A stretch of 45,924 bases of DNA from contig JAQWTI010000047.1 of NCBI GenBank assembly GCA_029242745.1, positions 1 through 45,924 on the forward strand, given 5' to 3'. Made by a program: the position numbers and the translations under genes. Below are positions 23,214 through 40,494 of this stretch, one piece after another; positions within the stretch are counted from its first letter, which is position 1; the number at the start of each line of letters is the position of its first letter. Below the pieces are notes generated by a model. The model was not told the DNA's origin and did no database searches. It saw nothing but the letters and a program-made list of their open reading frames with translations. The DNA is from Acidimicrobiales bacterium. GTDB taxonomy: Bacteria > Actinomycetota > Acidimicrobiia > Acidimicrobiales > MedAcidi-G1.

Positions 23214-23221
23214 AGGTCGAC

Positions 23222-24130: not shown

Positions 24131-24909
24131 CCGCAGATCGAGTTGGTCCACTGGCCGGCTGTTCCATCGTCGTGACTCGGGCCACTAACCAGGCCAGTTC
24201 ATTATCTACCGCGCTGGCCGCGCGCGGTGCTGAGGTAATTCAGTTACCGGTTATCGCCATCGCAAAACCCACTGATGGGGGAGCGGCCCTGTCTGAAGCC
24301 ATAGATGAATCGGTTAGTGGTTCATACGAATGGATTGTTGTGACGTCGCCTAATGGGGCGCGTCTGGTGGCCGATGGTATTTCCAAGCAACTTGTTGGGG
24401 GAAGTGAGTTCTCTGTTCGCTTTGCTGCGGTCGGACCCAGGACTGCAGCCCCGCTGTTGGCTGCTGGTCATATCGTCGACCTGATTCCATTTGAGGCTTC
24501 GGCAGAGGGTTTGTTGGCTGAGTTTCCGAGACCGTCTGGTAACCGGAATCGTTTGCTGCTCGCTCGGGCTGAAACTGCCCGAGAGGTGCTACCTAAAGGC
24601 TTGCGAGCCTTTGGCTGGGAGGTCGAGGTGGTTGTCGTTTATCGGAATGTGGCCACTGATGTCGACGCAGCGACGCTGGCGGCTGCAGCCCAGGCTGACC
24701 TGATTACTTTTACGTCCGAATCCACCGTCCACCGTTACCACAGTCTTCTCGCCGGTGAACAGGTCACCCCACTTGATGCAGTTTGCATCGGATCGATCAG
24801 CGGTGCAGCGGCTCGTGACGTCGGGCATGAGGTGGTTGAGGCTGATACACAATCGGTCGAGGGTCTGGTCGCTGCGGTTGAGGGTTGGGCTAGATCCAGA
24901 GTTGACTGA
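24127..24909 (+). CDS. hemD: Uroporphyrinogen-III synthase
   Basis: A 260-residue protein with the two-lobed HemD pattern. Lobe 1 has IVVTRATNQASSLSTAL and RGAEVIQLPVIAI, followed by WIVVTSPNGARLVADG. Lobe 2 carries LLLARAETAREVLPKGL, VEVVVVYRNV and LITFTSESTVHRYHSLL. HemD sequences diverge strongly, and these semi-conserved strands plus location between hemC and hemB support the call. It closes hydroxymethylbilane with inversion of ring D. No methyltransferase domain is fused. The GTG start overlaps the hemC stop. Confidence 0.92.
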   Translation: MTADRVGPLAGCSIVVTRATNQASSLSTALAARGAEVIQLPVIAIAKPTDGGAALSEAIDESVSGSYEWIVVTSPNGARLVADGISKQLVGGSEFSVRFAAVGPRTAAPLLAAGHIVDLIPFEASAEGLLAEFPRPSGNRNRLLLARAETAREVLPKGLRAFGWEVEVVVVYRNVATDVDAATLAAAAQADLITFTSESTVHRYHSLLAGEQVTPLDAVCIGSISGAAARDVGHEVVEADTQSVEGLVAAVEGWARSRVD

Positions 24910-24945
24910 CCGGCGTTGGCGTTGACATACGTAGGCTTCAGTACT

Positions 24946-25929
24946 GTGGAATACCCCGTCTCACGACCTCGCCGTCTACGCCGCACAGCCGCCCTGCGGA
25001 GACTCGTGGCGGAGACTCGTCTTTCAGTTGATGACCTGGTTGCACCGCTATTCATCCGGGAAGGTATCGAGACCCCAAGGCCTGTGGCTTCCCTGCCTGG
25101 TGTGGTCCAGCACACTCGAGTAAGCCTCCGGTCAGAGGTAACTGAAATGCGGGACCTTGGTATCCCAGCGGTAATCCTCTTCGGGGTCCCCGAAAACAAG
25201 GATGCCTTCGGTTCAGGGGCCTGGAACCCGGACGGCATTGTTCAGGTGGCCTTGCGTGACTTACGCGACGAAGTGGGTGATGACATGGTTCTGATAGCCG
25301 ACTTATGCGTAGATGAGTACACCGACCATGGCCACTGTGGGGTGCTCGATGGTCGAGGTTCGGTCGACAACGACGCCACGCTCGAGTTGTACACCCAAAT
25401 AGCTGTAGCCCAAGCCGATGCTGGAGCGACCATTACAGCTCCCTCGGGAATGATGGATGGCCAAGTGGCGGCTATACGCGCCGCACTTGACGGTGCTGGC
25501 CATCAGCAAACGGCGATCTTGGCATATGCCGCCAAGTACGCCTCTGCCCTATACGGGCCCTTTCGCGATGCGGTAGACGTGGAGATCGTTGACGGTGGTG
25601 ATCGTCGGGGTTACCAGCAGGATCCGCCCAACGTTGGTGAAGCGCTGGTGGAAATTTTGGGTGACATTGATCAGGGCGCTGACATGGTCATGGTAAAACC
25701 GGCATTGGCATATCTGGATGTGATTGCCAAAGCACGGGCGGCTATCGACGTGCCGCTCGCTGCCTACCATGTCAGTGGCGAGTTCGCGATGGTGCAAGCA
25801 GCAGCGGCCAACGGTTGGATAGATGGTGACGCCGTTGGAATGGAGCACTTGCTCTCCATCCGCCGGGCTGGGGCCGACTTTATTCTCACCTACCTAGCCC
25901 GACGGGCCGCCGAACTACTCGGCAACTGA
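24946..25929 (+). CDS. hemB: Delta-aminolevulinic acid dehydratase (porphobilinogen synthase)
   Basis: A 327-residue HemB from GTG 24946, chosen because the family usually opens with 'P..RPRRLRRT' (here MEYPVSRPRRLRRTAALRRL); TTG 24916 would add ten residues. The metal-binding loop reads ADLCVDEYTDHGHCG, with two of the three zinc-site cysteines (Cys121, Cys131) and Asp123 in place of the middle one. The Schiff-base lysines are Lys197 (AYAAKYASALYGPF) and Lys251 (MVMVKPALAYLD). It joins two aminolevulinates into porphobilinogen. A conserved hemB position in actinobacterial hem operons. Confidence 0.95.
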   Translation: MEYPVSRPRRLRRTAALRRLVAETRLSVDDLVAPLFIREGIETPRPVASLPGVVQHTRVSLRSEVTEMRDLGIPAVILFGVPENKDAFGSGAWNPDGIVQVALRDLRDEVGDDMVLIADLCVDEYTDHGHCGVLDGRGSVDNDATLELYTQIAVAQADAGATITAPSGMMDGQVAAIRAALDGAGHQQTAILAYAAKYASALYGPFRDAVDVEIVDGGDRRGYQQDPPNVGEALVEILGDIDQGADMVMVKPALAYLDVIAKARAAIDVPLAAYHVSGEFAMVQAAAANGWIDGDAVGMEHLLSIRRAGADFILTYLARRAAELLGN

Positions 25930-25938
25930 GGAACACTG

Positions 25939-27213
25939 GTGGGCGCCAACTTCGACCTCTTCGAACGCGCACAGCGGGTTATCCCGGGAGGGGTGAACTC
26001 GCCGGTTCGGGCTTTCGGGTCTGTTGGGGGTACGCCCTACTTTGTGGACCGGGCTGATGGTCCGTACCTTTGGGATGCTGAGGGCCGCAGGTACATCGAC
26101 TACGTGCAGTCTTACGGCCCGGGCATCCTTGGACATGCTCATCCGGCAGTCGTCGAGGCCGTAACCCGTGCCGCATCGGCTGGTACCACTTACGGTGCTC
26201 CAACTGAGGCTGAGGTGGTTCTGGCTGAGATGGTTGTCGAACGGATTGCCGGACTGGAGTCCGTGCGATTCGTGTCTTCGGGCACTGAGGCCACCATGTC
26301 GGCAATTCGACTAGCCCGGGGAGCTACCGGGCGCTCGGGCATTGTGAAGTTCGCTGGCTGCTACCACGGTCATGCCGACGCGCTGCTGGCTGCCGGTGGT
26401 AGTGGCGTAGCTAATCAGGGTCTATCGGGATGCGACGGAGTTACCAGCGGTGCTGTGGCCGACACCATTGTCGCTCCGTACAACGTGGTGCCTGTTCTCG
26501 ATGACGGCGTCGCGGCAGTCATCGTGGAACCGGTTGCCGCCAACATGGGCCTAGTTGCGCCACTTGGCGGGTTCCTTGAGGGGTTGCGGACTGCATGTGA
26601 CGAGGTTGGTGCGCTGTTGATCTTCGACGAAGTCATCACTGGCTTTCGCCTAGCCCAAGGGGGGGCTGTTGAACAGTTCGGAGTAACCCCAGATTTATGG
26701 TGCTTCGGGAAAGTCATCGGTGGTGGTCTACCGGTTGGAGCCTTTGGTGGCCGGTGGGAAGTAATGGAGAATCTGGCTCCTCTAGGCGGCGTTTATCAAG
26801 GAGGAACTCTTTCAGGGAATCCGTTGGCCATGGCGGCTGGCCGCACAACACTAGAGCTGCTTGACGACGGACAATTCGACCGTCTGGCTGCCACGGCAAC
26901 CCGCTTAGCCAACGGCCTAACTGACGCATTTACATCAGCTGGGTTATCTGCAGTGATGCCCCGGGTTGGCTCTCTGCTCGGTCTGTACTTCGGTGAACGG
27001 GCACCAACTGATTTTGATGAGGCCAAGGTACTGGCCGACAACGGGATGTACCCAAAGGTGTTCCACGCGCTACTAGAACGCGGTGTGGCCTTGGCGCCGG
27101 GAGCGTACGAGGCGATATTTCCGAGTCTTGCCCACAATGAAACAGTGATCGAGGAGACCATCGAAATCGCAGCCGAGGCTGCTCTTGCCGTTTCTGTTCT
27201 AACTACCTCTTAA
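25939..27213 (+). CDS. hemL: Glutamate-1-semialdehyde 2,1-aminomutase
   Basis: A 424-residue PLP enzyme, GTG start nine bases after hemB. The opening LFERAQRVIPGGVNSPVRAF is the GSAM signature. Cofactor residues are Asp230 (LLIFDEVITGFR) and the PLP lysine Lys258 (DLWCFGKVIGGGLPVGAFGG). SSGTEATMSAIRLARG near 113-128 holds the phosphate. It turns glutamate-1-semialdehyde into 5-aminolevulinate, completing the precursor step started by HemA. It is the last gene of the operon, and its end overlaps the convergent pgi end by fifteen bases. Confidence 0.95.
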   Translation: MGANFDLFERAQRVIPGGVNSPVRAFGSVGGTPYFVDRADGPYLWDAEGRRYIDYVQSYGPGILGHAHPAVVEAVTRAASAGTTYGAPTEAEVVLAEMVVERIAGLESVRFVSSGTEATMSAIRLARGATGRSGIVKFAGCYHGHADALLAAGGSGVANQGLSGCDGVTSGAVADTIVAPYNVVPVLDDGVAAVIVEPVAANMGLVAPLGGFLEGLRTACDEVGALLIFDEVITGFRLAQGGAVEQFGVTPDLWCFGKVIGGGLPVGAFGGRWEVMENLAPLGGVYQGGTLSGNPLAMAAGRTTLELLDDGQFDRLAATATRLANGLTDAFTSAGLSAVMPRVGSLLGLYFGERAPTDFDEAKVLADNGMYPKVFHALLERGVALAPGAYEAIFPSLAHNETVIEETIEIAAEAALAVSVLTTS

Positions 27214-28840: not shown

Positions 28841-30121
28841 TCAGGCGTCGACTAGACGGTCAGGTACCAGACGAACCACGCCAGCGATGGCCGAGTAAGC
28901 AGCCTCAGCCATCCCCTTGTCCTCATCGCGCATCAGATTGGCCATGATTCTTAGTGCCCACTCCATCAGGGACTGGGACCGCATTCCGACCCGAGTCAAT
29001 TCCCGTATAAGTGCCGGATTGCCAATCGCCTTGGAGAAGAGCCGGGCAACCTTGAAGTAGAGCCCGTATTCCTCGTTGAGCAGATCGGGATACCGCGTCA
29101 GCACAGCGCTGTCACCTCGCGCCACTGCTTCCGCAATGAGACTGGCGGCCATTCGTCCAGTTTCGTAGGCGTAGTCGATCCCCTCCCCGTTGAACGGATT
29201 TACCGAGCCAGCAGCGTCACCGACCACTAGCCAGTTCGGCCCTGCTTTTGGCCCAACAGATCCGGCCATCGGTAGTCGCCCTCCAGTTGGAGGAGCGGTT
29301 GGGCGGGTGGGGTCAATCTGCCAGTGCTCAGGGAGTGTGCGGGCAAACTCTTCGAACAAATGGCTGGTATTGACATCCTTGTAGTCCCGGAATGTTGATA
29401 GCAGGCCTATTCCTACGTTGATGGTGCCGTTTCCCACTGGAAAGATCCAGCCATAGCCAGGCATGGCGTTGCCATCTCGGTCGCGGACGTCGAGCGAGGA
29501 CTCAATCCACGGATCATCGTGCAATGGGCTTTCGAAATAACCGCGAATGGCCATACCCATCGGGTAGGTCCGATCGCGTGCCGTACCCATCGCCCGGCCG
29601 AAGCGAGAATTGGCACCATCGGCCACCACTACGTGGTGGGCCCGGATTGTCCGTTCACTACCTAATTCCTTATCCAAGACCACTGCACCACCGATGGTGC
29701 CCGCAACTGTTCCAGCAGGAGGATCAACCGGGCGGACGGCCTCAGTACCTTGAAGGAGCGTTGCCCCTGCAGCCACTGCGTGGTCAGCCACGAAGGCATC
29801 AAGATCGCATCGGCGCACCACGTAGCCGTAGGACGGGTAGACACTGTGGTTCGGCCAGGCCATTTCGAGGGTCCGTCCGTGGGCGATAGCTCGGAGGCCA
29901 TCGAAACGGTGGTAACGCTCCAAGGTTGAGCCGAGGCCCATCTCCTCGATCTGGTGGACGGCTCTCGGCGTGAGGCCATCACCGCATGTCTTCTCTCGAG
30001 GAAAGGTCTTACGTTCAACGACAACCACGTCAAGGCCCTGTGAGGCTGCCCAGTAGGCAGTCGCAGCGCCGGCCGGACCTCCGCCGATAACCAGCAGGTC
30101 ATGAATCTTGTTGTCAGTCAT
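28841..30121 (-). CDS. Geranylgeranyl reductase family flavoprotein (MenJ-like menaquinone reductase)
   Basis: A 426-residue FAD protein. The dinucleotide motif LLVIGGGPAGAATAYWAA is at residues 9-26, followed by the acidic VVVVERKTFPREKTCGDGLTPRAV, a GGR signature. VVADGANSRFGRAMG near 166-180 and the second FAD motif WLVVGDAAGSVNPFNGEGIDYAYE near 294-317 complete the site. Members saturate isoprenoid chains. In mycobacteria MenJ (Rv0561c) reduces one bond of menaquinone next to complex I genes, and here it stands beside cytochrome and nuo operons. A menaquinone role is therefore likely, but archaeal-type lipid reductases look alike. The cytochrome c gene lies 36 bases upstream, same strand. 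Confidence 0.85.
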   Translation of the reverse strand: MTDNKIHDLLVIGGGPAGAATAYWAASQGLDVVVVERKTFPREKTCGDGLTPRAVHQIEEMGLGSTLERYHRFDGLRAIAHGRTLEMAWPNHSVYPSYGYVVRRCDLDAFVADHAVAAGATLLQGTEAVRPVDPPAGTVAGTIGGAVVLDKELGSERTIRAHHVVVADGANSRFGRAMGTARDRTYPMGMAIRGYFESPLHDDPWIESSLDVRDRDGNAMPGYGWIFPVGNGTINVGIGLLSTFRDYKDVNTSHLFEEFARTLPEHWQIDPTRPTAPPTGGRLPMAGSVGPKAGPNWLVVGDAAGSVNPFNGEGIDYAYETGRMAASLIAEAVARGDSAVLTRYPDLLNEEYGLYFKVARLFSKAIGNPALIRELTRVGMRSQSLMEWALRIMANLMRDEDKGMAEAAYSAIAGVVRLVPDRLVDA

Positions 30122-30157: not shown

Positions 30158-31075
30158 TCAGCTGTCGCTGCCGTCCTCACCGACGGCAGCGAGAATGGCC
30201 TGAATCTCAGCAACAGTGAGAGTCGATGGATCAAGATGGCCTTGCAGATCAAGTTCGCCCATTTCCACGGCATATTCGATCGCTTCCGCCTGAAGAAGAG
30301 CTTCTTCAGAACCACCAAATGCGGCTCGCTCGTGCAGGACTACTCCGATTAGCTCCTCAGTAGTAAGAATGTCCGCCCATCCCGGCATTCCTCCAGCGAC
30401 GATTCGACCGCGTGCTGGATCGCCGTATGGGTTCCCAAGACCGATGCCGGCTGAGCCTTTAGCTAACCACTCAATCATGGGCTCCAGAGTAGGAAAGGTG
30501 ATCAGGACCTCTCCGTCTGCAAGTTTGTAACCGCTACCGCCGCCTCCGTTGGCTCCGTGGCAACTAGCACAGCGGGTTTCGTAGATGTGTTGTCCTTCAG
30601 CCAGAATTCCTGTGGCCTCCTGCGGTGGGCGTTCGAGCGTCCCGACGTAAGAGATGGCCCATATGGGCAGTAGCAATAATGCACCAGCTGCCCACCAAGG
30701 AATTTTCTTGCGCACATCAGCTGCCGCCATGTAGGGAGCTACTGGTTCTGGTGGGATCTCGGCTGGGGGCGTGGATTTTGTCTCAGCGACTGGGGCAGCA
30801 GGCACGGCCTCAACAGGCGCGGCTGGGCTATCGGCTGCTGGCGCATCAGCGCCAGCAGCTTTGGCCTTAGCGGCCTTGGCTCGCTTTAGAAGGTGTTCGG
30901 GTATCTCGGTCAACGTGGGCCCCGGAGGAGTCTGACGGTGCGGCGGTGTATTTGGATCCAGGCGACGACCATGTTGAGTAAGTCCAAAGCGCCGGTCTGG
31001 AACAGAAGGCAGGTTAGCGGCCGGCTGCCGGGTGCGGGCACCCTGAGCCCAGGTGTTGAACAGAGAGCTAATCAT
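30158..31075 (-). CDS. Membrane-anchored monoheme cytochrome c with IPEHL-type N-terminal module
   Basis: Up to 305 residues from ATG 31075. One membrane helix lies at about 126-145 (PWWAAGALLLLPIWAISYVG), then an outside cytochrome c domain: heme site CASCH at 169-173 and methionine ligand Met230 in VAGGMPGW. Before the helix stand a basic helix TEIPEHLLKRAKAAKAKAAG (56-75) and an Ala-Pro linker. TTG 30913, just ahead of TEIPEHL, is an alternative start (251 residues); the extra 54 residues are proline-rich and unlike anything known. It probably carries electrons from the bc complex encoded divergently at 31277. It may be co-transcribed with the reductase downstream. Confidence 0.82.
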   Translation of the reverse strand: MISSLFNTWAQGARTRQPAANLPSVPDRRFGLTQHGRRLDPNTPPHRQTPPGPTLTEIPEHLLKRAKAAKAKAAGADAPAADSPAAPVEAVPAAPVAETKSTPPAEIPPEPVAPYMAAADVRKKIPWWAAGALLLLPIWAISYVGTLERPPQEATGILAEGQHIYETRCASCHGANGGGGSGYKLADGEVLITFPTLEPMIEWLAKGSAGIGLGNPYGDPARGRIVAGGMPGWADILTTEELIGVVLHERAAFGGSEEALLQAEAIEYAVEMGELDLQGHLDPSTLTVAEIQAILAAVGEDGSDS

Positions 31076-31276: not shown

Positions 31277-31732
31277 ATGGTCGCGTTCCTGACATCCGTT
31301 GTCGTACTGTTCATCCTTCTGGGTGGTGTCGACTGGTACCGCAAACGGACGCCAGCAGACAAGGACTTCACGTGGGGTGAGGCGATGCTCTTTGGCACCT
31401 ACGTCTTCTTCATCCTCTGGTGGGCATACGGAGTGGTACCTCACCAATGGTTGACCTGGGCTGACAGCGAACTCAATTGGCGCCCCGACCGGTTCTTAGT
31501 TGGCCCAGAACTTCCATGGACTGGTGACAAGGGCATAGTCGAGTGGGCACTCCCGTTCACTCTCACCTATCGGGCTATTCGTGATCTAGTCGCTGTCGTG
31601 ATTTATGGGATCGCCCTGGGTGGCAATGCCGCTCTATGGCGCCAGTGGCAGAATCGCGGCAAGACGGACGACACTCCGAAGCCCAAATCGGAATACGGTC
31701 GCCCACTCATTAGAGAGGGAGCTGGCGCATGA
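31277..31732 (+). CDS. Membrane protein of unknown function, first gene of the bc operon
   Basis: A 151-residue protein with a strong ribosome site nine bases before ATG 31277. Hydrophobic segments lie at about 2-19 (VAFLTSVVVLFILLGGV), 36-54 (AMLFGTYVFFILWWAYGVV) and perhaps 96-118 (YRAIRDLVAVVIYGIALGG). A Trp-rich external loop (WLTWADSELNWRPDRF) separates the second and third. No cofactor motif is present. The gene overlaps the ferredoxin start by four bases, so translation is coupled, suggesting that it anchors the ferredoxin or is a subunit of the complex. No family is recognised. Confidence 0.8.
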   Translation: MVAFLTSVVVLFILLGGVDWYRKRTPADKDFTWGEAMLFGTYVFFILWWAYGVVPHQWLTWADSELNWRPDRFLVGPELPWTGDKGIVEWALPFTLTYRAIRDLVAVVIYGIALGGNAALWRQWQNRGKTDDTPKPKSEYGRPLIREGAGA

Positions 31733-32145
31733 GTGTCACCGATGCCAATCCACCGCACCCAACGTTCGTAGATGACTATGTCCTGCGCGAGGTTGACGCG
31801 GACTGGATGACGACCAACAACCGAGTTAAGCAGTTCATTCACATTGACCAGTCTGAGTGCATAATGTGCGAAGGCTGCGTCGATATCTGTCCGTGGAAGT
31901 GCATTCACATGGTGTCCCCCGACGCAGTGGCTGAGTCAGTGGGGACTGAACAGCCGGGAGTGGACCCCAAAGACCACGTAATTTTCACCATTGACGACGA
32001 CGTGTGCACTCGGTGCGCACTTTGTGTTGATCGCTGTCCAACTGGGGTAATAATCCTTGGAAAGTGCAACGATGCACCAGCCGAGGGCGATGCCCACCAG
32101 CGGACCAATACCCACGGTTACGGCTACGGAATGCGCTTGGGTTGA
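31729..32145 (+). CDS. 2[4Fe-4S] ferredoxin-type protein
   Basis: A 138-residue protein with two full 4Fe-4S motifs. The first is Cys44, Cys47, Cys50, Cys54 (CIMCEGCVDICP). The second is Cys93, Cys96, Cys99, Cys103 (CTRCALCVDRCP). Two further cysteines (Cys58, Cys113) have no clear role. A 30-residue linker separates the motifs, longer than in small clostridial ferredoxins and closer to NuoI-like or dehydrogenase subunits. A Gly/Tyr-rich tail ends the chain. It has no signal or helix, so it acts on the cytoplasmic side. Encoded between a membrane protein and a b6-type cytochrome b, it may give electrons to that complex; this is inference. Confidence 0.88.
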   Translation: MSVTDANPPHPTFVDDYVLREVDADWMTTNNRVKQFIHIDQSECIMCEGCVDICPWKCIHMVSPDAVAESVGTEQPGVDPKDHVIFTIDDDVCTRCALCVDRCPTGVIILGKCNDAPAEGDAHQRTNTHGYGYGMRLG

Positions 32146-32184
32146 TGAACACAGCTACGAGAGTTTCAGAGGAGAGCGGACATC

Positions 32185-32967
32185 GTGTCTGACGATAAGA
32201 AGCCAGCTGGTCAGGCGCTGCAAAAGCAGCTTGGCCAGTTGTCTGACCAAGTGCAGGCCTCGCAGGCTTGGAGTTCAATTTTCCGTCCGGGCTCAATCTT
32301 CCGGAAGGGTTACAACGACAGCCCTCGAAACCGGTCGTATGTGATCATGAACAGTGTCCTCTACCACCTGCACCCGGTGAAGGTGAAGCGACACGCTGTG
32401 AAGGTCAGTTACACGCTGTGCCTCGGTGGACTGTCCTTCTTCTTGTTCATTCTGCTAACTATCACCGGCATCTTTTTGATGTTCTTCTACCGGCCCACTG
32501 CGGCGCAAGCGTGGGACGACATCCAGACCCTGCAGACAGCGGTGGGCTTTGGCCTACTTGTCCGCAATATGCATCGTTGGGCAGCCCACCTAATGGTGCT
32601 GGCCGTATTCCTGCATATGGCCAGAGTCTTCTACCATGGCGCGTATAAGCCGCCGCGTGAGTTCAACTGGGTAATAGGTGTCATGCTTTTACAGTTCACG
32701 CTGTTGCTTTCTTTCACTGGCTACCTCCTCCCTTGGGATCAATTGGCCCTTTGGGCGGTAACTGTGGGAACCAACATGATTGGCTATACGCCCGTTTTCG
32801 GTGATCAAGTGAGGTTTGTGTTGCTTGGTGGCGTTGAGATTGGAACTGACACCCTCTTACGTTGGTACACCCTTCACGTCCTCATGCTTCCATTCGTATT
32901 GGTCATATTTTTGGCCATCCATTTCTGGCGAGTCCGTAAGGACGGCGGCATCTCCGGGCCTCTGTAG
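32185..32967 (+). CDS. Cytochrome b6-type subunit of a bc complex, with heme c_n cysteine
   Basis: A 260-residue protein from GTG 32185 (GAGGAGAG upstream). It has four membrane helices. Heme b ligands are His130 and His144 (14 apart) and His231 and His246 (15 apart, as in b6). Cys79 in TLCLGGLSFF aligns with the b6 cysteine that binds heme c_n; Cys79 to His130 is 51 residues, equal to b6. The sequences FFYRPT, KPPREFNWVIGV, TGYLLPWDQ and GGISGPL (C-terminus) are b6-like. It is the N-terminal half of a split cytochrome b, paired with the subunit at 32999. An N-terminal extension of about 45 residues is unusual. Confidence 0.9.
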   Translation: MSDDKKPAGQALQKQLGQLSDQVQASQAWSSIFRPGSIFRKGYNDSPRNRSYVIMNSVLYHLHPVKVKRHAVKVSYTLCLGGLSFFLFILLTITGIFLMFFYRPTAAQAWDDIQTLQTAVGFGLLVRNMHRWAAHLMVLAVFLHMARVFYHGAYKPPREFNWVIGVMLLQFTLLLSFTGYLLPWDQLALWAVTVGTNMIGYTPVFGDQVRFVLLGGVEIGTDTLLRWYTLHVLMLPFVLVIFLAIHFWRVRKDGGISGPL

Positions 32968-32998
32968 GCCGGCCGCTCTGGTACCAGGACAAGAATCG

Positions 32999-33742
32999 AT
33001 GACTGAGATCCCCGAACACCTCCGTAAGAGAGCCGAGGCCGCCAAGGCTAAGGCTCAGGGTGCAACTGCTTCCCCTGCGGGTGATGCCGCCCCGGAGGGT
33101 GATGTCGCTCCGGCGGGCGATGCTGCACCCGTATCTGGCGACGAGAAAATTCCTAGCCACCTACTAGATCGCGGCACAGCAGCAGCCGACCTGCCGGCAC
33201 CCGCTGCTGGGGTCCCCGCTGTTCCTTCTGGTAACAGCGGCCCTGACGGTCACAACCAACGGCTGTTGACTGTCGTTAAGTCAGGGTCCATCCAAGACAC
33301 TAAGGCGACACCTCAGGACAAGGTCCATGTGTGGCCACACCTGCTATTGGCTGAATTCCTTGCGGCCCTAGCAATCACGCTGTTCACTCTTTTGTTTTCC
33401 ATATTTGTCAACGCCCCGCTGCTTGAACTGGCTGACTACAACAAGACGCCAAACCCATCCAAGGCGCCCTGGTACTTCCTCGGTCTGCAGGAACTCCTAA
33501 CCATGTTCCATCCGATGGTGGCCGGAGTGACTATCCCCGGCATTGGTTTGTTTCTGTTGGTGATGGCGCCCTACATCGACAAGAACCCGTCGAAGCGCCC
33601 GGAAGATCGAAAGTTCGCCATTTCCCTTATGACTGTGCATTTTATGTTCTGGGCGGTCCTTGTGATGATCGGTTCCTTCTTCCGAGGTCCTGGTTTCAAC
33701 TTCGTCTTCCCTTGGAACTCCGGACTCTTTTTCGAACTGTGA
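32999..33742 (+). CDS. Subunit-IV-like C-terminal part of cytochrome b, with IPEHL N-terminal extension
   Basis: A 247-residue protein from ATG 32999 (AGGA upstream). Three membrane helices lie at about 112-136, 178-192 and 209-227. Between the first two lies NPSKAPWYFLGLQELL (152-167), the counterpart of the quinol-site PEWY motif, here A-P-W-Y. The N-terminal 105 residues are unusual: TEIPEHLRKRAEAAKAKAQ (2-20), an Ala/Asp/Gly repeat region, and a second weaker copy EKIPSHLLDRGTAAA (49-63). The chain ends GPGFNFVFPWNSG. It completes the split cytochrome b and helps form the Qo site. The same basic module occurs in the divergent cytochrome c. Confidence 0.88.
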   Translation: MTEIPEHLRKRAEAAKAKAQGATASPAGDAAPEGDVAPAGDAAPVSGDEKIPSHLLDRGTAAADLPAPAAGVPAVPSGNSGPDGHNQRLLTVVKSGSIQDTKATPQDKVHVWPHLLLAEFLAALAITLFTLLFSIFVNAPLLELADYNKTPNPSKAPWYFLGLQELLTMFHPMVAGVTIPGIGLFLLVMAPYIDKNPSKRPEDRKFAISLMTVHFMFWAVLVMIGSFFRGPGFNFVFPWNSGLFFEL

Positions 33743-33798: not shown

Positions 33799-34668
33799 GT
33801 GGCCGTTGTAGTTGCTGTCGTACTTCTCATCGTTCTTGCTGTAGCGGTCTTGGCTGGAGCTTCCAGGCGTAGTGATCGAAAGGCAGTTGGTCTATCTCGC
33901 GAAACGCGTCGACGCGATGCACCGAACCCTCTGATGGGCGAGTCAGGCGACGACACCCTTTCTGGCCGTGAGGTTGAGGCAGCTGCGCTTGCAGGCCGTA
34001 CCAGTACCAGTGTTGCGGTAGTTGAGTCGGCCCCGCTAGCGCCTTTTGTGGCCCCTGACCCTATGGCTTTAGGTGTAACTCGACGTCAGTTCTTCAATCG
34101 CAGCCTGGTCGGAATGATGGGCTTTGGCGTATCGGGCTTTGGCGCGGCCTGTATTGCTTTTCTTTGGCCACAGGGTGTGAGTGGCTTTGGTTCCAAGATC
34201 AAGGTCGGGGATGTGACTCAGTTGTTGGCTGACATCACTTCCAACAATGGTTTCCTCTATAAGCCCGAAGGTCGGATGTGGATTACCGCATACCCCAACG
34301 GTGCAGTTGAGAAGGCCCGGGCTACTTATTCGGCTCAGGAGTTGGCCGGTATGACCTCAGGCGTAGACGGTGGTTTCGATGCTGGCATTATCGCGCTTTA
34401 CCAGAAATGCCCCCATCTAGGCTGCCGGGTCCCCAACTGTGTTTCATCACAATGGTTTGAGTGCCCCTGCCACGGCTCCCAATACAACCAGGTTGGGGAG
34501 AAACGAGGAGGCCCGGCGCCACGTGGCATGGATCGTTTCGCTATGTCGGTCAGCGACGGCGTCTTGACTGTCGATACCGGCACGATCATTCAGGGCCCGC
34601 CCATCGGGACGAACACCACCGGCCAAGAGGCCGAGGGACCGAACTGCATCGGTTCTGCAGACCACTAG
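33799..34668 (+). CDS. Rieske iron-sulfur protein of the bc complex
   Basis: A 289-residue protein from GTG 33799 with GAGGAG upstream. The 2Fe-2S site is Cys204/His206 (CPHLGC) and Cys222/His225 (CPCHGS), with Cys209 and Cys224 as the likely disulfide. A first hydrophobic helix spans about 2-20. A twin-arginine-like motif TRRQFF (94-99) precedes a second helix (103-124), as in Tat-exported Rieske proteins. An unpaired Cys214 is present. It takes electrons from quinol at the Qo site and passes them to cytochrome c. The usual 'CTHLGC' threonine is proline here. Confidence 0.92.
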   Translation: MAVVVAVVLLIVLAVAVLAGASRRSDRKAVGLSRETRRRDAPNPLMGESGDDTLSGREVEAAALAGRTSTSVAVVESAPLAPFVAPDPMALGVTRRQFFNRSLVGMMGFGVSGFGAACIAFLWPQGVSGFGSKIKVGDVTQLLADITSNNGFLYKPEGRMWITAYPNGAVEKARATYSAQELAGMTSGVDGGFDAGIIALYQKCPHLGCRVPNCVSSQWFECPCHGSQYNQVGEKRGGPAPRGMDRFAMSVSDGVLTVDTGTIIQGPPIGTNTTGQEAEGPNCIGSADH

Positions 34669-34687: not shown

Positions 34688-35893
34688 TTGAACGAAATGA
34701 ACACACTCCTCTTCGCAAGTACCCAACGGACGATCGGTTGGGTCATAGCGTCCGTCGTCCTGGTGGGTATGGGGGTCTACCTCCTCTTCAGCTTTCGTGT
34801 AGGCAAACGCGAGATCGGCTCTGAGATTGACCTGGCTCCCAACCGAGTGCGTCACGCCGATGACGACGAATTAGAGACCCGTTTTCTGGATCGCAATTTG
34901 GCATGGTCACTGGTCTTGCTAACTGTGGTGTCTCTCATTCTCCCGCTCTACTGGCTGATGGAGCCGGCACGTCAGGACAACGCTGCTTATGGCTGGGTAA
35001 AGCGGTTTGAAAAGCGCGGGGCCAATAGTTTCGAGGAAGCTTGTGTTGGTTGCCACGGTCCAGGTGGAGTGGGCGGTGTCGCTTCGTACACCCTTGCGGA
35101 TTCCAACGGTGTCTTCGTGGCCCAAGTCGACTGGAAGGCACCGGCGTTGACAACTGTGCTTAGCCGATTCGGTGAGTCCGAAGTGGAACACATTCTCAAC
35201 TATGGACGCCCAGGTAGCCCAATGCCGGCTTGGGGTCTGCCTGGTGGAGGGCCGATGACCTCCCAGCAGATTCACCAGCTGATTGTCTATTTACGTTCAA
35301 TCCAACTGTCACCTGAAGATGCCATCGCACAGGTGACGAGCGGCTTACAGGCTGGGGCCCGCGGCATCGTGACCTCCCGTGACCCGGGCCTAACCAACGC
35401 AGATGCTATTGCGGCTGCCGCTGATGCCTGGTTGATCCAAGCAGCTGACCCGGCGAGTAGTGACTACCGGGCATATGGAGAACTGCTTTTCAACAACCCT
35501 GCTGCCCAGGGGGCCAATAGTTGTGCCCGCTGTCATACCCCAGGCTTTTCCTACGGTGCTTCTAGTGACGAGGCCACCGCTGAGTTGATTGCGGAGTGGC
35601 CCCGTCTCGCTGAAGCTGGCGTCCTTACCGGTTACCAGCCAGGAACTGGCCATGTCGGTCCAAGCCTGATTGGAGTTGAAACTCACTTCCCGACTGCAGC
35701 AGGTCAGGAAGACTTCATACGGAGCGGTTCTGCCGTAGGGATTGGCTATGGAAACGCCCGTATCGGAACTGGTGGCATGCCCGGTTTCGGCGGGCGCACC
35801 GATGATCTGAATGTGATCGGTACGGTCGTGCGGCCTCGAATCCTCACCCCAGAGCAGATCGCCGCCATTGTGGCCTACGAGAGGGGCCTGTGA
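34688..35893 (+). CDS. Diheme cytochrome c subunit of the bc complex
   Basis: A 401-residue membrane protein. Hydrophobic segments lie at 15-36 and 70-90. Two heme c sites follow: CVGCH at 119-123 and CARCH at 279-283. Methionine ligands are probably Met179 (GSPMPAW) and Met364 (GTGGMPGF). The two cytochrome domains (about 100-205 and 260-400) are both class I-like, as in the fused diheme cytochrome c1 (QcrC) of actinobacteria, but here the helices are N-terminal. The start is TTG 34688 or ATG 34697. It likely serves as cytochrome c1 and electron shuttle. Its stop overlaps the next gene. Confidence 0.9.
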   Translation: MNEMNTLLFASTQRTIGWVIASVVLVGMGVYLLFSFRVGKREIGSEIDLAPNRVRHADDDELETRFLDRNLAWSLVLLTVVSLILPLYWLMEPARQDNAAYGWVKRFEKRGANSFEEACVGCHGPGGVGGVASYTLADSNGVFVAQVDWKAPALTTVLSRFGESEVEHILNYGRPGSPMPAWGLPGGGPMTSQQIHQLIVYLRSIQLSPEDAIAQVTSGLQAGARGIVTSRDPGLTNADAIAAAADAWLIQAADPASSDYRAYGELLFNNPAAQGANSCARCHTPGFSYGASSDEATAELIAEWPRLAEAGVLTGYQPGTGHVGPSLIGVETHFPTAAGQEDFIRSGSAVGIGYGNARIGTGGMPGFGGRTDDLNVIGTVVRPRILTPEQIAAIVAYERGL

Positions 35894-36903
35894 TGGATGC
35901 TCTCGTCACATTGGCAGGTCTGGGATGGGATCCTGAGATATCAGGAATCCTGACAGTCGTCGCCGGCGTCACAGTCCTTATGGGTTCTATCTGGTTGATT
36001 GTGGTCACGAACTCAGGGGTGCGCTTGGCCACTCTTATGACAGCTGCTGCCTTGATGGGATGGATGGTCATCCTCGGCAGTGCTTGGTGGATGTACGGCT
36101 CAGGATGGAAGGGGGATGCCCCGAGCTGGAAGACCGTGGATATCAACTTGGGAGACCTCGGTGCCAGCGGATTGTTTTACGCCCGGGAGTTGCCCAACCC
36201 AGGGGAAATGCCAACGGCCTACGAACTGGTTGTGGCCTCCGGGGATGCGGCGGCGGCTGCCGAGTTCGACACGCTTCCCACAGCAGACGATAATCCCGAC
36301 CTGTCAAGTGATGCGCTAGACGCTTTACGGGCCGATCGCCAACTGCGTAACGAAACCATCACCCGGTCCGAACTGGCCGCCGTGGCTCGCAATGTCACTG
36401 ATGCCGCTGGCCTGCGTGCCATCGGTCCATGGCGTCTGCTGGCCACCACCGAAGCTGGAGACGCCCAAGCTCAGGCAGCTGCAGACTTGCTGGCTCACCC
36501 CGATCTTGATTTTAATAGTTCGGCTGATTACAAATTACTTGACGCTTACACCATGGGTGGGAAGCCGTCATTGACTGACGACCCAAATCGCTGGGATCGG
36601 ATCAGTCACTGGATCACCAGTTCTGCCCGTCTAACTCACCCGACCCGCTACACGGTGGTGCAGCTGCAAGGTGTGCTCCGTCAGGAAGTGGCCGCTGGTG
36701 AAGCACCTCCACGACCGGTAGTCGACCCTGATGAGCCGGTGGTGTCAGTGGTGATGATTCGTGATCTGGGTTGGGTTCGTCTTAGGCCTGCGCTGGTCAC
36801 CATCGGGTCATTTCTGGTCTTCCTCGCTCTCTGCTATTGGCTCCATGTCCGTGATAAGGAGTTGATGGAGCGTCGCAGGGAGTTTGAGGCCAGTAAGGCC
36901 TGA
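35893..36903 (+). CDS. Membrane protein of unknown function at the end of the bc operon
   Basis: A 336-residue protein from ATG 35893, overlapping the previous stop (TGATG) and preceded by GAGAGGGG. Two N-terminal helices at about 17-38 and 42-65 and one near the C-terminus at about 300-320 flank a large external domain of about 220 residues with alternating helices. No cysteine cluster, heme or signature is visible. The two conserved-looking stretches are GSAWWMYGSGWKGDAPSWK and RPALVTIGSFLVFLALCYW. By position it is a subunit or assembly factor of the complex. I do not recognise a family. A hairpin separates it from nuoA. Confidence 0.8.
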   Translation: MDALVTLAGLGWDPEISGILTVVAGVTVLMGSIWLIVVTNSGVRLATLMTAAALMGWMVILGSAWWMYGSGWKGDAPSWKTVDINLGDLGASGLFYARELPNPGEMPTAYELVVASGDAAAAAEFDTLPTADDNPDLSSDALDALRADRQLRNETITRSELAAVARNVTDAAGLRAIGPWRLLATTEAGDAQAQAAADLLAHPDLDFNSSADYKLLDAYTMGGKPSLTDDPNRWDRISHWITSSARLTHPTRYTVVQLQGVLRQEVAAGEAPPRPVVDPDEPVVSVVMIRDLGWVRLRPALVTIGSFLVFLALCYWLHVRDKELMERRREFEASKA

Positions 36904-36930
36904 CCTATGAACAAATCTGTGGTCATAGGT
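36903..36930 (+). promoter_or_regulatory. Intercistronic hairpin before nuoA
   Basis: A perfect 8-base inverted repeat, ACCTATGA (36903-36910) and TCATAGGT (36923-36930). Inside, ACA (36911-36913) pairs with TGT (36918-36920), leaving a GG bulge and an AATC loop, so the stem can reach 11 pairs. It starts at the last base of the previous stop codon and ends seven bases before the nuoA ribosome site. No T-run follows, so it is not a standard rho-independent terminator. It may act on RNA stability or uncouple nuo from the bc operon. Confidence 0.55.
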
Positions 36931-36949
36931 GAGACTGGGGGAGAGTGAC

Positions 36950-37432
36950 GTGCTAGGGCAGTACCTACCAATCCTCTTCCTCCTGGTCTTGGCATTCCTC
37001 TTTGCCGCCCTCAGTTTCATGGCCTCGCGCCTATTGGCCCCCCGGAGCCCCAATCACCGCAAAGCGGCGCCCTACGAGTGCGGGATCATCCCGGGGCGGG
37101 AGACGCCGGAACGCTTCCCGGTCCGTTTCTTCCTTGTAGCGATGATCTTTATCGTTTTCGACATCGAGATCATCTTCTTCTATCCGTGGGCTATCGCCCA
37201 CGATGGTCTTGGCCTGTTTGGCTTGTTCGCCTTGTTAATTTTTTCAGCGGCAGTGTTCGAATCTTTCGTGTACCTCATCGGCAATGGTGCTCTCGAGTGG
37301 GGCCCAGTGCGTCGAACCCGTGAGGCCGTCTCCTCGCACCGGACTTCATCCTCGACCATCCGGCGCGCAGGTGTCCGGGAAGTAGGTCTGGAAGGCCGGG
37401 ACCAGATCCGCTCCGGGGAGCAGGCGGCCTGA
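36950..37432 (+). CDS. nuoA: NADH-quinone oxidoreductase subunit A
   Basis: A 160-residue protein starting at GTG 36950 (GGGGGAGAG just upstream; GTG 36929 is in frame but has no ribosome site and lies in the hairpin). Three helices are visible, with the family core [44 protein letters not shown]. The cysteine in YECG and acidic FDIE residues are conserved in NuoA. The end carries a roughly 40-residue hydrophilic extension beyond ALEWGP, longer than in most NuoA. It is part of the membrane arm at the quinone entry of complex I. The operon continues with overlapping genes. Confidence 0.93.
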
Positions 37433-38031
37433 TGGTCCACATCCCTGGCGTCGGCGATGTTTCCAATGTGCTTTCTGACGGTCTGGAAGGCCTTGAGCAC
37501 AACTTTGTCACCTCCCGGGTCGAAGACCTCGTCAAGTGGTCGCGCGCTCGGAGTTGTTGGCCAGCCACCTTTGGCCTGGCGTGTTGTGCGATAGAGATGA
37601 TGGCGACCGGTGCGGCACACTATGACCTGGCCCGATACGGCATGGAGGTCTTCCGTGCTTCTCCCCGCCAAGCTGATCTAATGATTGTGGCTGGTCGAGT
37701 TTCCCAGAAAATGGCTCCAATCTTGCGGCAGATCTACGACCAGATGATGGAGCCCAAGTGGGTCATCTCTATGGGAGTTTGCGCTTCCAGTGGTGGGATG
37801 TTCAATAATTACGCCATTGTTCAAGGTGTGGACCAGGTAGTACCAGTGGATGTGTACGCCCCGGGTTGCCCACCAGGCCCAGAGACACTGATGCACGCTA
37901 TTTTGACCCTTCACGACAACATTCAGAGTGGTGAACTGACTCGCCGTCGTGAGGCCAACGGCGGCGGCGCGTCCATTGAGGTAACGGTCCCGACTGAGAC
38001 GGTTCAAGCTGTAAAGCTGGGGACCCAGTGA
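37432..38031 (+). CDS. nuoB: NADH-quinone oxidoreductase subunit B
   Basis: A 199-residue NuoB. Cluster N2 ligands are the tandem Cys51-Cys52 ([11 protein letters not shown]), Cys117 (MGVCASSGG) and Cys146 ([10 protein letters not shown]). The core [32 protein letters not shown] is highly typical. N2 passes electrons to the quinone. The ATG overlaps the nuoA stop, and the nuoC GTG overlaps the nuoB stop. The C-terminal tail after about residue 165 is variable. Confidence 0.96.
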
Positions 38032-38519
38032 GCGACGGAACTGTCCTCTACGGCGTGCCCGTTGTTGAGACCGCTGGTCAAGTCGTTCTGCATCCTCGCG
38101 TCGACCAGTGGCTTGAAACTGTTTCTGCCCTAAAGGCTGATGGTTTCTGCATGGCCATTGACTTAACAGCCGTGGATTATTCAGCTCATCCCGGCCGAAC
38201 CAACCTGCCCGACGACGTGAATCCCGAGCGCTTTGAGGTGGTGGCCTCGTTCATCAGCCACGTTGACGGTGGTCGGAGAGTCCGCTTGCGAGTTCAAGTT
38301 CCTGAAGGTGATCCCTCGTTACCTTCGCTGTTCAACATTTTCCCCGGGACTGAAGCTATGGAGCGCGAAGTTTGGGACCTTTTAGGTATTGCTTTTGATG
38401 GACACCCTGACCACACCCGGATTCTGATGCCCGAGGATTGGGTAGGGCATCCGCTGCGTCGAGATGTTCCCATGGGGCGAATTCCTGTCCAGTTTAAAGA
38501 CTCCCCAGTCTCCCGATGA
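38028..38519 (+). CDS. nuoC: NADH-quinone oxidoreductase subunit C
   Basis: A 163-residue protein matching NuoC. It has [13 protein letters not shown] near 44-56, [12 protein letters not shown] near 65-76, and the signature [35 protein letters not shown] near 111-145. It is somewhat shorter than the usual actinobacterial NuoC because the N-terminal part is reduced. It is a 30-kDa peripheral arm subunit next to NuoD and is separate here, not fused to it. Starts and stops overlap both neighbours by four bases. Confidence 0.94.
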
Positions 38520-39847
38520 GCGACGTGGCAACTTCCGGGCTAGACGACGCTCCCGTTTCTGATTCGGATTCTGCCGAACGTATCTTTCGACTTGACGAGA
38601 CCAGCGCCGTACTCCGTCTCAGCGAAGCTGAGGCTGCTGCGCTAGCCGGAAATTCAGAGGATCCACCTAGCGGCGACTCAGCCGATCAGCGAATGATTCT
38701 CAACATGGGACCGTCGCACCCTTCCACTCACGGTGTGCTGCGCCTGATACTGGAGATGGAGGGTGAGACTGTCCTTCGGTCCAAGCCGGTCATCGGCTAC
38801 CTCCATACCGGCATGGAAAAGACCGCTGAGGATCTGACCTATCTCCAGGGTCCAACCAACGTCACCCGAATGGATTATGCCGCTCCGCTTTTTTCGGAAC
38901 TTGCGTTTTCGATGGCTGTGGAACAACTTCTTGGTATCGAGGTGCCACCCCGAGCTACATGGATCCGCATGCTTATGTGTGAACTGAACAGGGCTGCATC
39001 GCACTTGCTTTTCCAAGCCACCAACGGCATGGATCTCGGTGCTGTGTCGATGATGATCTACGGATGGCGTGAGCGCGAAGAGGTACTGCGATTTTTTGAG
39101 AAGGTCACTGGTCTGCGGATGAATCACAACTACATCCGGCCGGGTGGGGTTGCCGCTGATTTGCCCGATGGTTGGCAAAAAGACATCCACCGACTGTTGG
39201 AGTTGATCCCGCCCAGGCTGGATGAATATGACAAGCTTTTGACTGGTCAACCGATATTCAGAAAACGCCTTCAGGGTGTAGGCGTGCTGACCCCAGCTGA
39301 GGCGCTTGCCCTTTCAACCACCGGACCCATCCTGCGATCCACCGGCTATGCATGGGACTTGCGTCGCGATCAGCCTTACCTTGCTTACGACCAGGTGGAG
39401 TTTGACGTCATCGTAGGAACCCATGGTGACGCTTTCGATCGTTACGCCATCCGTCTAAATGAGATCCGGGAATCGCTCCGTATCGTCGAGCAAATCGTTG
39501 ATTTGATGCCCGATGGTGACTACCGCACTCAAGATAAGAAAGTTACGCCACCGCCACGGGCCCGGATCAACGAGTCGATGGAAGCACTCATTCATCACTT
39601 CAAGATCTTCACTGAGGGTTTCCACGTGCCTGAGGGCGAGACCTACGCAGCCGTGGAGTCTCCACGTGGTGAGTTGGGCTGCTACATGGTTTCAGACGGT
39701 GGTCCGAAACCATATCGGATGCATATTCGCGGACCGAGTTTCGTGAATCTACAGACCTTGCCGCACTTGATGGAGGGCGGGCTTATTGCTGACGGGGTGG
39801 CAGTCGTATCGTCAGTTGATCCGATCATGGGAGAGGTCGACCGGTGA
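38516..39847 (+). CDS. nuoD: NADH-quinone oxidoreductase subunit D
   Basis: A 443-residue NuoD (49-kDa). The core begins near residue 58 with RMILNMGPSHPSTHGVLR, then GYLHTGMEKTAEDLTYLQ and RADYAAP-like segment TRMDYAAPL. The C-terminus has the expected ESPRGELGCYMVSDGGPKPYRMHIRGPSF and DPIMGEVDR. It forms most of the quinone cavity with NuoB. The first 57 residues, acidic and serine-rich, are an extension not needed for the fold. ATG 38516 overlaps the nuoC stop. Confidence 0.96.
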   Translation: MSDVATSGLDDAPVSDSDSAERIFRLDETSAVLRLSEAEAAALAGNSEDPPSGDSADQRMILNMGPSHPSTHGVLRLILEMEGETVLRSKPVIGYLHTGMEKTAEDLTYLQGPTNVTRMDYAAPLFSELAFSMAVEQLLGIEVPPRATWIRMLMCELNRAASHLLFQATNGMDLGAVSMMIYGWREREEVLRFFEKVTGLRMNHNYIRPGGVAADLPDGWQKDIHRLLELIPPRLDEYDKLLTGQPIFRKRLQGVGVLTPAEALALSTTGPILRSTGYAWDLRRDQPYLAYDQVEFDVIVGTHGDAFDRYAIRLNEIRESLRIVEQIVDLMPDGDYRTQDKKVTPPPRARINESMEALIHHFKIFTEGFHVPEGETYAAVESPRGELGCYMVSDGGPKPYRMHIRGPSFVNLQTLPHLMEGGLIADGVAVVSSVDPIMGEVDR

Positions 39848-40494
39848 GCTGGTTTGATGCTGCTAACGAACGGACGGCTCGAGAGATTCTGAGCCACTAT
39901 CCGAGGCCTAAATCGGCTGTTATTCCTCTGCTTCACCTGGCGCAAGAGCAAGAGGGGTGGGTTACTCCTCAGGCTATGAGTGAGATAGCGGCGATGACCG
40001 GTACCACGGCCGCCGAAGTACTCGGCACTGGCAGTTTCTACGAGATGTTTAAGTTCCATCCGGTGGGGAAGTACATCGTCAACATCTGCACCAACATCTC
40101 GTGCCAGTTGTTGGGTGGTGAAGACTTACTGAACCATGCCGAGTCCACTCTGGATGTGCGGGCCGGTGGTACTACTGACGACGGCCTGTTCACCGTTGAG
40201 GACGTGGAGTGCGTGGCCGCGTGCACGGAGGCACCCTGCTTCACCGTGAACTACCGCTACTTCCACCGGGCTAACGCCGAAACCTTTGATGAGGTAGTAG
40301 CTGACATCCGGGCTGGACGTAGCCCACTGGAGCGCGGTGCTGCTGGCGACATCGGTGAGCTTCCTGAGCACGGCACCCTCGGCCGGATACGCCAGCACGT
40401 GCCTGACGATCGACGGGCTGGCGTGGTGCCACCCGAGGAGGTCAACGGTGCACCAGCGTGGATGCCCGAACCTGTAGTCGAGGAGGCCTTATGA
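39844..40494 (+). CDS. nuoE: NADH-quinone oxidoreductase subunit E
   Basis: A 216-residue protein with the thioredoxin-like 2Fe-2S fold. The cluster N1a ligands are Cys82 and Cys87 (ICTNISC) and Cys123 and Cys127 (VECVAAC). The N-terminal helices RPKSAVIPLLHLAQEQEGWV are family-typical. A C-terminal stretch of about 60 residues after FDEVVADIRAG is extra. It works with NuoF and NuoG in the NADH-oxidising module. GTG 39844 overlaps the nuoD stop, and the nuoF ATG overlaps its own stop. Confidence 0.95.
   Translation: MSWFDAANERTAREILSHYPRPKSAVIPLLHLAQEQEGWVTPQAMSEIAAMTGTTAAEVLGTGSFYEMFKFHPVGKYIVNICTNISCQLLGGEDLLNHAESTLDVRAGGTTDDGLFTVEDVECVAACTEAPCFTVNYRYFHRANAETFDEVVADIRAGRSPLERGAAGDIGELPEHGTLGRIRQHVPDDRRAGVVPPEEVNGAPAWMPEPVVEEAL

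Follow-up and report, generated by a model that had tools for sequence, protein, structure and literature searches.

A ferredoxin gene kept beside a b6-type cytochrome b in the complex III operon of Acidimicrobiales and other Actinomycetota

Genes of the operon

The stretch of DNA analysed here, referred to as the window, is 45,924 nucleotides long (contig JAQWTI010000047.1, assembly GCA_029242745.1) and comes from an Acidimicrobiales bacterium with a genome of 2.44 Mb (94.7% complete); it carries, on the forward strand, the operon of a Rieske/cytochrome b complex (complex III) in which a ferredoxin gene stands just upstream of a b6-type cytochrome b. The order of the genes is a small membrane protein of 151 amino acids (31277 to 31732), the ferredoxin-like subunit (31729 to 32145), the cytochrome b (32185 to 32967), subunit IV (SubIV, the C-terminal half of cytochrome b; 32999 to 33742), the Rieske [2Fe-2S] protein (33799 to 34668, PF00355), a diheme cytochrome c, a protein of 337 amino acids and then nuoA to nuoH. 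A preliminary description of this DNA had placed the ferredoxin and cytochrome b in one operon, and both open reading frames have been verified: the ATG of the ferredoxin overlaps the stop codon of the upstream gene (ATGA) and 39 bases separate it from cytochrome b. A profile search of the source genome returns a single cytochrome b match, the one at 32185 to 32967, and no second Rieske/cytochrome b complex was found there.

The ferredoxin, 138 amino acids long, harbors two CxxCxxCxxxCP motifs typical of [4Fe-4S] clusters and an N-terminal extension of about 35 residues that is conserved in the ferredoxins of closely related loci, 26 of which align with a mean column identity of 84%. The eight cluster cysteines are invariant in an alignment of 45 sequences from the phylum, and a ninth cysteine located outside both motifs, Cys58 (31900 to 31902, forward strand, within CPWKC), is conserved at 90% or more in the phylum. 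Its closest relatives of solved structure by sequence are the FwdF polyferredoxins (E=1.4e-13), and its predicted model matches FwdF-type polyferredoxins weakly (E=1.7e-4, TM about 0.4).

The cytochrome b is a four-helix protein of 260 amino acids with a conserved N-terminal stretch (PF00033, E=1.8e-45); the 247-residue SubIV matches PF00032 on a longer frame, 32816 to 33742. A cytochrome b split into a four-helix part and SubIV, together with a Rieske protein, is the arrangement of b6-type complexes.

Scope of the comparisons

Conservation was read in two sets. The close-kin set joins the locus of the window to those of the best 80 of 583 relatives, 81 loci in all. The titles of the relatives mostly name Acidimicrobiia, Acidimicrobiales, Acidimicrobiaceae or Microthrix and some just Actinomycetota or similar; some of these loci end early, which affects the counts of neighbouring genes. 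The phylum survey covers 296 Actinomycetota genomes searched with a ferredoxin profile (matches counted at E<=1e-15) and a cytochrome b profile. Its cytochrome b comparison takes the 123 best listed places, down to E=4.8e-52, weaker ones being excluded; the 99 strongest (E<=6.3e-96), of which 97 are testable, constitute the survey's type I, the window's own kind. The counts from the two sets are not independent, because the same species may recur in both. Gene content in high-GC loci was read by tblastn and profiles.

A cytochrome b tree of 112 rows (100 further loci, nine of the 81 close ones and three solved b6 chains) was rooted at its midpoint, with several long branches flagged, and represents phyla besides Actinomycetota through the b6 chains only. 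Sampling beyond Actinomycetota consisted of these three chains, a plasmid search and control genomes; the plasmid relatives are distant cytochromes b, at most 41.1% identical among the 40 of 101 records listed. A ferredoxin in actinobacterial complex III was not found described in the literature, where coverage of subscription papers was partial and an earlier mention is possible.

Linkage of the ferredoxin to cytochrome b

The survey of co-occurrence proposed in the preliminary description was carried out. The ferredoxin lies just upstream of cytochrome b in all 81 close loci, with gaps of -2 to 187 bases between the two matches (a contig end truncates that of L078); SubIV is present in 80 of these loci and Rieske in 77. 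Across the phylum survey, 97 of 100 ferredoxin matches lie directly upstream of cytochrome b and the remaining three end no more than 290 bases from where a contig finishes. Conversely, the ferredoxin adjoins 92 of the 99 strongest cytochrome b places, or 92 of 97 once two places cut by contig ends (G025 and G242) are removed. By gene linkage, the ferredoxin is dedicated to the complex: it is a conserved companion of type I cytochrome b. One place among the 92, G042:C115 (loci L097 and L118), is a short contig whose ferredoxin and cytochrome b are Acidimicrobiia-like in a genome that belongs to another family; it is probably a contamination.

The five type I places lacking the ferredoxin (5 of 97) belong to genomes G118, G129, G151, G172 and G058. 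Four of these operons keep SubIV, Rieske and cytochrome c, and the fifth, in G058, is cut downstream by a contig end. In the tree, four of them, the f52 cases, form two pairs among ferredoxin-bearing relatives and G058 falls elsewhere; a single loss in f52 is still possible, as that part of the tree lacks resolution. In six genomes of the same order the ferredoxin profile has no match, and the only cytochrome b matched is a distant one (E about 1e-26 to 1e-31).

The heme c_n site

The preliminary description had assigned Cys79 of cytochrome b (codon 32419 to 32421, forward strand) to the position where heme c_n is attached in cytochrome b6, and the alignment bears this out: Cys79 is the sole cysteine of the protein and aligns, with no gap before it, with the c_n cysteine of five solved cytochromes b6. 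The spacing from Cys79 to His130 is 51, as from Cys35 to His86 in cytochrome b6, and those of the heme histidine pairs, also described earlier as b6-like, are indeed 14 (His130 to His144) and 15 (His231 to His246). All four histidines (32572 to 32922) are His in 100 of 100 further loci. The position of Cys79 is Cys in 156 of 156 type I loci (81 close, including L059 read by eye, and 75 further); it is also Cys in nine of nine b6-like loci with no match to the window's ferredoxin, Arg (eleven) or Tyr (one) in the twelve loci of a sister clade, called type II, and Thr in the four others. Because ferredoxin and cysteine are both kept in all 81 close loci, their pairing there is not due to chance.

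A second residue comes from SubIV, whose profile search matches cytochrome b and PetD. Glu119 (33353 to 33355) corresponds to PetD Phe40 or to a residue adjoining it; the Trp of WPHL, which is profile position 129, matches PetD chain residue 32, the type II SubIV of locus L140 starts at the same place, and one residue of doubt attaches to the placement because the alignment is inferred from the starts of the matches. Phe40 caps heme c_n in b6f (PMC9342900, accessible text), and a glutamate as second ligand accompanies low-potential hemes c_N (PMC12954380, accessible text). In readable loci the two positions covary: Cys goes with Glu (144 of 144), Arg or Tyr with His (12 of 12) and Thr with Asp (2 of 2). 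The SubIV residue was unreadable in 23 further loci, 15 of which were rechecked by motif; L161 and L029 show Glu, L212 has a SubIV lacking the motif, and the other twelve, mostly short stretches cut at contig ends, have no SubIV motif. The covariation of Cys with Glu therefore supports a real c_n site in type I, where the cytochrome b would bear a putative heme c_n and Glu119 is likely its axial ligand. The b6-type complexes of Bacillus and heliobacteria that oxidize menaquinol also have Cys and Glu at this site; we know of no ferredoxin gene accompanying them.

On the quinol oxidation side, SubIV has KAPWY (33464-33475, forward strand) where b6f and bc1 have PEWY, and the acid of PEWY is thus absent. 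KAPWY is found in 77 of 77 readable close loci, in the twelve type II loci, in four of four ferredoxin-less type I loci and in 61 of 63 further type I rows, the exceptions being a KVPWY and a cut row; PEWY itself occurs in three b6-like loci.

Two more histidines of cytochrome b, His61 (32365 to 32367, forward strand) and His135 (32587 to 32589, forward strand), are kept in every type I and type II locus that was read; the nine b6-like loci have Gly (where read) at the first position and mostly Asn at the second. They may coordinate an additional cofactor; a heme like the one proposed for the centre of the anammox dimer would be one guess.

A sister clade with a fused flavoprotein

Type II (loci L137-L144 and L216-L219) is monophyletic with a support of 100/98, and a branch with a support of 100/99 separates types I and II together from b6f, from other b6-like proteins that have the cysteine and from forms that have Thr; the window's cytochrome b thus has b6 architecture, yet belongs to a clade separate from photosynthetic b6. 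In eight cases measured, type II cytochrome b is 47 to 55% identical to that of the window. A long frame directly precedes it (609 to 794 codons in seven whole cases; in L144 the contig holds only the tail) and ends in a ferredoxin domain homologous to the window's ferredoxin, with Cys58 kept in 11 of 12. The three upstream proteins scanned, out of twelve, all contain Fer4_20, Pyr_redox_2 and two Fer4 domains; we take the fusion to resemble NfnB/GltD-like flavoproteins that use NAD(P)H. Of the twelve genomes with type II, eleven also have type I, G095 being the exception.

The two types thus share sister cytochromes b, KAPWY and a homologous ferredoxin domain upstream of cytochrome b, and differ in that type II has the ferredoxin fused to a flavoprotein, Arg (11) or Tyr (1) in place of Cys79, and His in place of Glu119. 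Judging from these residues, the type II site may possibly hold a non-covalent heme or be a heme-free Qi site linked to NAD(P)H. A flavoprotein of this sort in the same slot fits an electron port on the cytoplasmic side. With its fused flavoprotein, type II bears a resemblance to the anammox Rieske/b complexes.

Comparison with known complexes

Heme c_n is considered a possible conduit of electrons from ferredoxin/FNR in the b6f literature (PMC9342900, accessible text). The window's complex and b6f have in common the c_n cysteine, the split cytochrome b and a possible ferredoxin entry at the Qi side; unlike b6f, the window's complex falls in a separate clade, includes Glu in its c_n site, uses a diheme cytochrome c instead of cytochrome f, and carries the ferredoxin in its operon.

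According to the accessible parts of one report (PMC12954380), the anammox Rieske/b complexes (Kuste4569-4574 and Kustd1480-1485) include cytoplasmic NAD(P) reductases with an NfnABC/FwdF-like fold, the nearest folds of these subunits being FwdF-type and NfnABC structures, and the models trace an iron-sulfur path towards heme c_N/b_N. Compared by description, not by sequence, the anammox complexes and the window share a b6-like split cytochrome b, SubIV, Rieske, a cytoplasmic iron-sulfur module of NfnABC/FwdF-like fold and Glu at c_N (modelled in anammox). They differ in that the anammox module holds an NAD(P) reductase and is accompanied by multiheme cytochromes c, whereas the window has a stand-alone ferredoxin and a diheme cytochrome c. 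No NAD(P) reductase subunit is found among the ten window genes scanned by Pfam, and the MenJ-like flavoprotein encoded nearby belongs to a distinct family.

The window's cytochrome b also passes the cut-off of the Geobacter family ExtP (NF040969; 305 over 290 bits; PMC5877670, accessible text), whereas its SubIV stays far below that of ExtQ (NF040970; 52.5 of 150). An ext neighbourhood is not seen either: the same ten genes contain no porin by Pfam, and none of the six genes checked for CXXCH has more than two. An automatic name of "selenite/tellurite reduction" would mislead.

Proposed function and its alternatives

The complex is a quinol:cytochrome c reductase of split b6 architecture, its quinone most likely being menaquinone, and the ferredoxin is very probably bound to it as a subunit on the cytoplasmic side. 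We propose, with a probability of roughly 0.58, a complex III that has a bound cytoplasmic 2[4Fe-4S] electron port at the Qi side and a heme c_n site of the menaquinone type. To the genes, their conserved linkage, the covarying residues and the fused form of the sister clade, the proposal adds that the ferredoxin would be bound in the complex, that heme c_n would be present and that electrons would pass: at the Qi site, the ferredoxin would hand them to, or take them from, hemes c_n / b_n of the low-potential chain. The stand-alone ferredoxin would be the iron-sulfur wire that forms the tail of the NAD(P)H flavoprotein in type II, and probably also in anammox, and the fused form shows the sort of electrons that such a port can handle.

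Several points weigh against this proposal. The ferredoxin and the c_n cysteine are separable, since the five ferredoxin-less type I operons all keep Cys79 (with Glu readable and present in four) and the twelve type II loci have the ferredoxin domain and no cysteine. The preliminary description had tied the two together; its dedicated, conserved ferredoxin stands (97 of 100 matches beside cytochrome b), and the tight pairing with the cysteine does not (5 of 97 type I places, 12 of 12 type II). The genome also has an NADH-type complex I (nuoA-H read), so that a second entry point for electrons is not obviously needed; no tie to 2-oxoacid:ferredoxin oxidoreductase emerged; and the ferredoxin model has a pLDDT of 77, a medium confidence, the other four models having 52 to 68.

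2-Oxoacid:ferredoxin oxidoreductase (TIGR03710), which the source genome possesses, was dropped as a general electron source after a search of the 296 genomes, and a tie to it is not supported, because its alpha subunit has no match or one with E>1e-7 in 16 of 96 ferredoxin-bearing genomes, while all five ferredoxin-less genomes have a strong match (E<=2.3e-191). In this search, which was limited to that enzyme, gene content points to no firm source of reduced ferredoxin.

As to direction, we lean to input over output on data that are not decisive. Input of low-potential electrons into the quinone pool is a tentative reading, at clearly less than even odds; it would be productive, since protons would be taken up inside and released outside on reoxidation, in line with the established logic of the Q cycle. 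Input via heme c_n in the manner of cyclic flow is possible. A broader picture, held at somewhat under even odds, is a two-way complex III widespread in Actinomycetota, a menaquinol:cytochrome c reductase that might also exchange electrons with the cytoplasm through ferredoxin and c_n, type II doing so with NAD(P)H and with Arg/His replacing c_n.

The ferredoxin port could instead work as an outlet, though we consider this unlikely: as quinol is oxidized at Qo, cytochrome c and oxygen would receive the high-potential electron, and this would push electrons by way of hemes b and c_n onto the ferredoxin. Such a bifurcation, which has been proposed for anammox, would supply biosynthesis with reduced ferredoxin or NADPH. 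That type II ends in an NAD(P)H oxidoreductase and that ten of the 16 genomes with no strong 2-oxoacid:ferredoxin oxidoreductase match are at least 95% complete and keep the ferredoxin speak for such an output; so does the argument of the anammox authors, who favour bifurcating output on account of Rieske potentials above +300 mV (PMC12954380, accessible text). It would nevertheless require very low heme b potentials, and electrons would be short-circuited to menaquinone if the c_n/Qi site were functional, a problem that the accessible text of the same report discusses.

It is also doubtful that the ferredoxin is a structural or regulatory iron-sulfur protein, serving assembly or redox sensing in a complex III of the ordinary kind and passing no electrons. 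It is absent from five operons, four of which retain SubIV, Rieske and cytochrome c, and no cytochrome b column that is 85% conserved in ferredoxin-bearing loci has a different consensus (at least 60%) in the five ferredoxin-less ones; the invariance of the eight cluster cysteines speaks against such a role, and so does a homologue that forms the tail of a redox flavoprotein in type II. A soluble carrier that shares the operon and serves other enzymes is improbable: the protein is short, has no hydrophobic membrane stretch, and operon membership alone does not prove binding, yet nearly all matches adjoin cytochrome b (the other three being near contig ends), the N-terminal extension is conserved and type II has the fused form.

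That the ferredoxin is needed for the covalent attachment of heme c_n is highly improbable, for although ferredoxin and cysteine are found side by side in 92 of the 97 type I places and the CCB heme-attachment factors of b6f were not found in the source genome, each feature occurs alone in ferredoxin-less type I and in type II, and the CCB search is uninformative, as among its control genomes only Synechococcus matched and Bacillus subtilis, which has covalent heme, was silent too.

It has long been debated in photosynthesis whether ferredoxin feeds a Rieske/cytochrome b complex via heme c_n. A ferredoxin gene beside a photosynthetic-like "extra heme" site suggests an unrecognised side door for electrons in actinobacterial respiration, which, if true, would give ferredoxin-driven cyclic flow a counterpart in respiration and perhaps a model for its evolution; the five genomes with ferredoxin-less type I and the twelve cysteine-less type II loci offer natural comparisons. 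The results also suggest that a good part of Actinomycetota have a complex III unlike the mycobacterial model, one to which automatic annotation would give the wrong name.

Other genes of the window

The 151-amino-acid membrane protein that opens the operon is of unassigned family: Pfam and NCBIfam scans gave no match, its predicted model, a confident one, has three helices (mean pLDDT 86.9), and a fold search of the PDB gave no match at E<=0.001. Its gene occurs in 79 of 81 close loci. Among 70 further ferredoxin-bearing type I loci, a profile detects it in 32 and not in the other 38; it is detected in none of the twelve type II loci and in all five ferredoxin-less type I loci, where it lies close upstream of cytochrome b.

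Downstream of Rieske, and likewise on the forward strand, the cytochrome c (34688 to 35893) has two CXXCH motifs and hydrophobic N-terminal stretches by sequence and Pfam. The 337-amino-acid protein (35890 to 36903) is found in 68 of 81 close loci and matches no family in Pfam and NCBIfam scans; nuoA to nuoH (36929 to 45642), with the NADH module nuoE, nuoF and nuoG, encode an ordinary NADH-type complex I.

Two genes on the reverse strand precede the operon. A divergent monoheme cytochrome c with one hydrophobic stretch (30158 to 31075, PF00034; true start probably near 30913) is matched in 63 of 81 close loci, a few of these matches being other cytochromes c. Next to it lies a MenJ-like geranylgeranyl/menaquinone reductase (28841 to 30121), which scores 353 bits against a MenJ cut-off of 700 and, though below it, hints at menaquinone as the quinone.

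SubIV (32999-33060, forward strand) and the divergent cytochrome c (about 30850-30913, reverse strand) have a common N-terminal tag, TEIPEHLxKRAxAAKAKA, which may be a docking or assembly signal; across the 81 close loci, motifs resembling IPEHLLxR are present in 64 SubIV frames and in 49 frames with CXXCH. Genes of heme synthesis lie upstream of the respiratory genes (21954-27213, forward strand): hemA, hemB and an aminomutase (25939-27213) recognised by eye.

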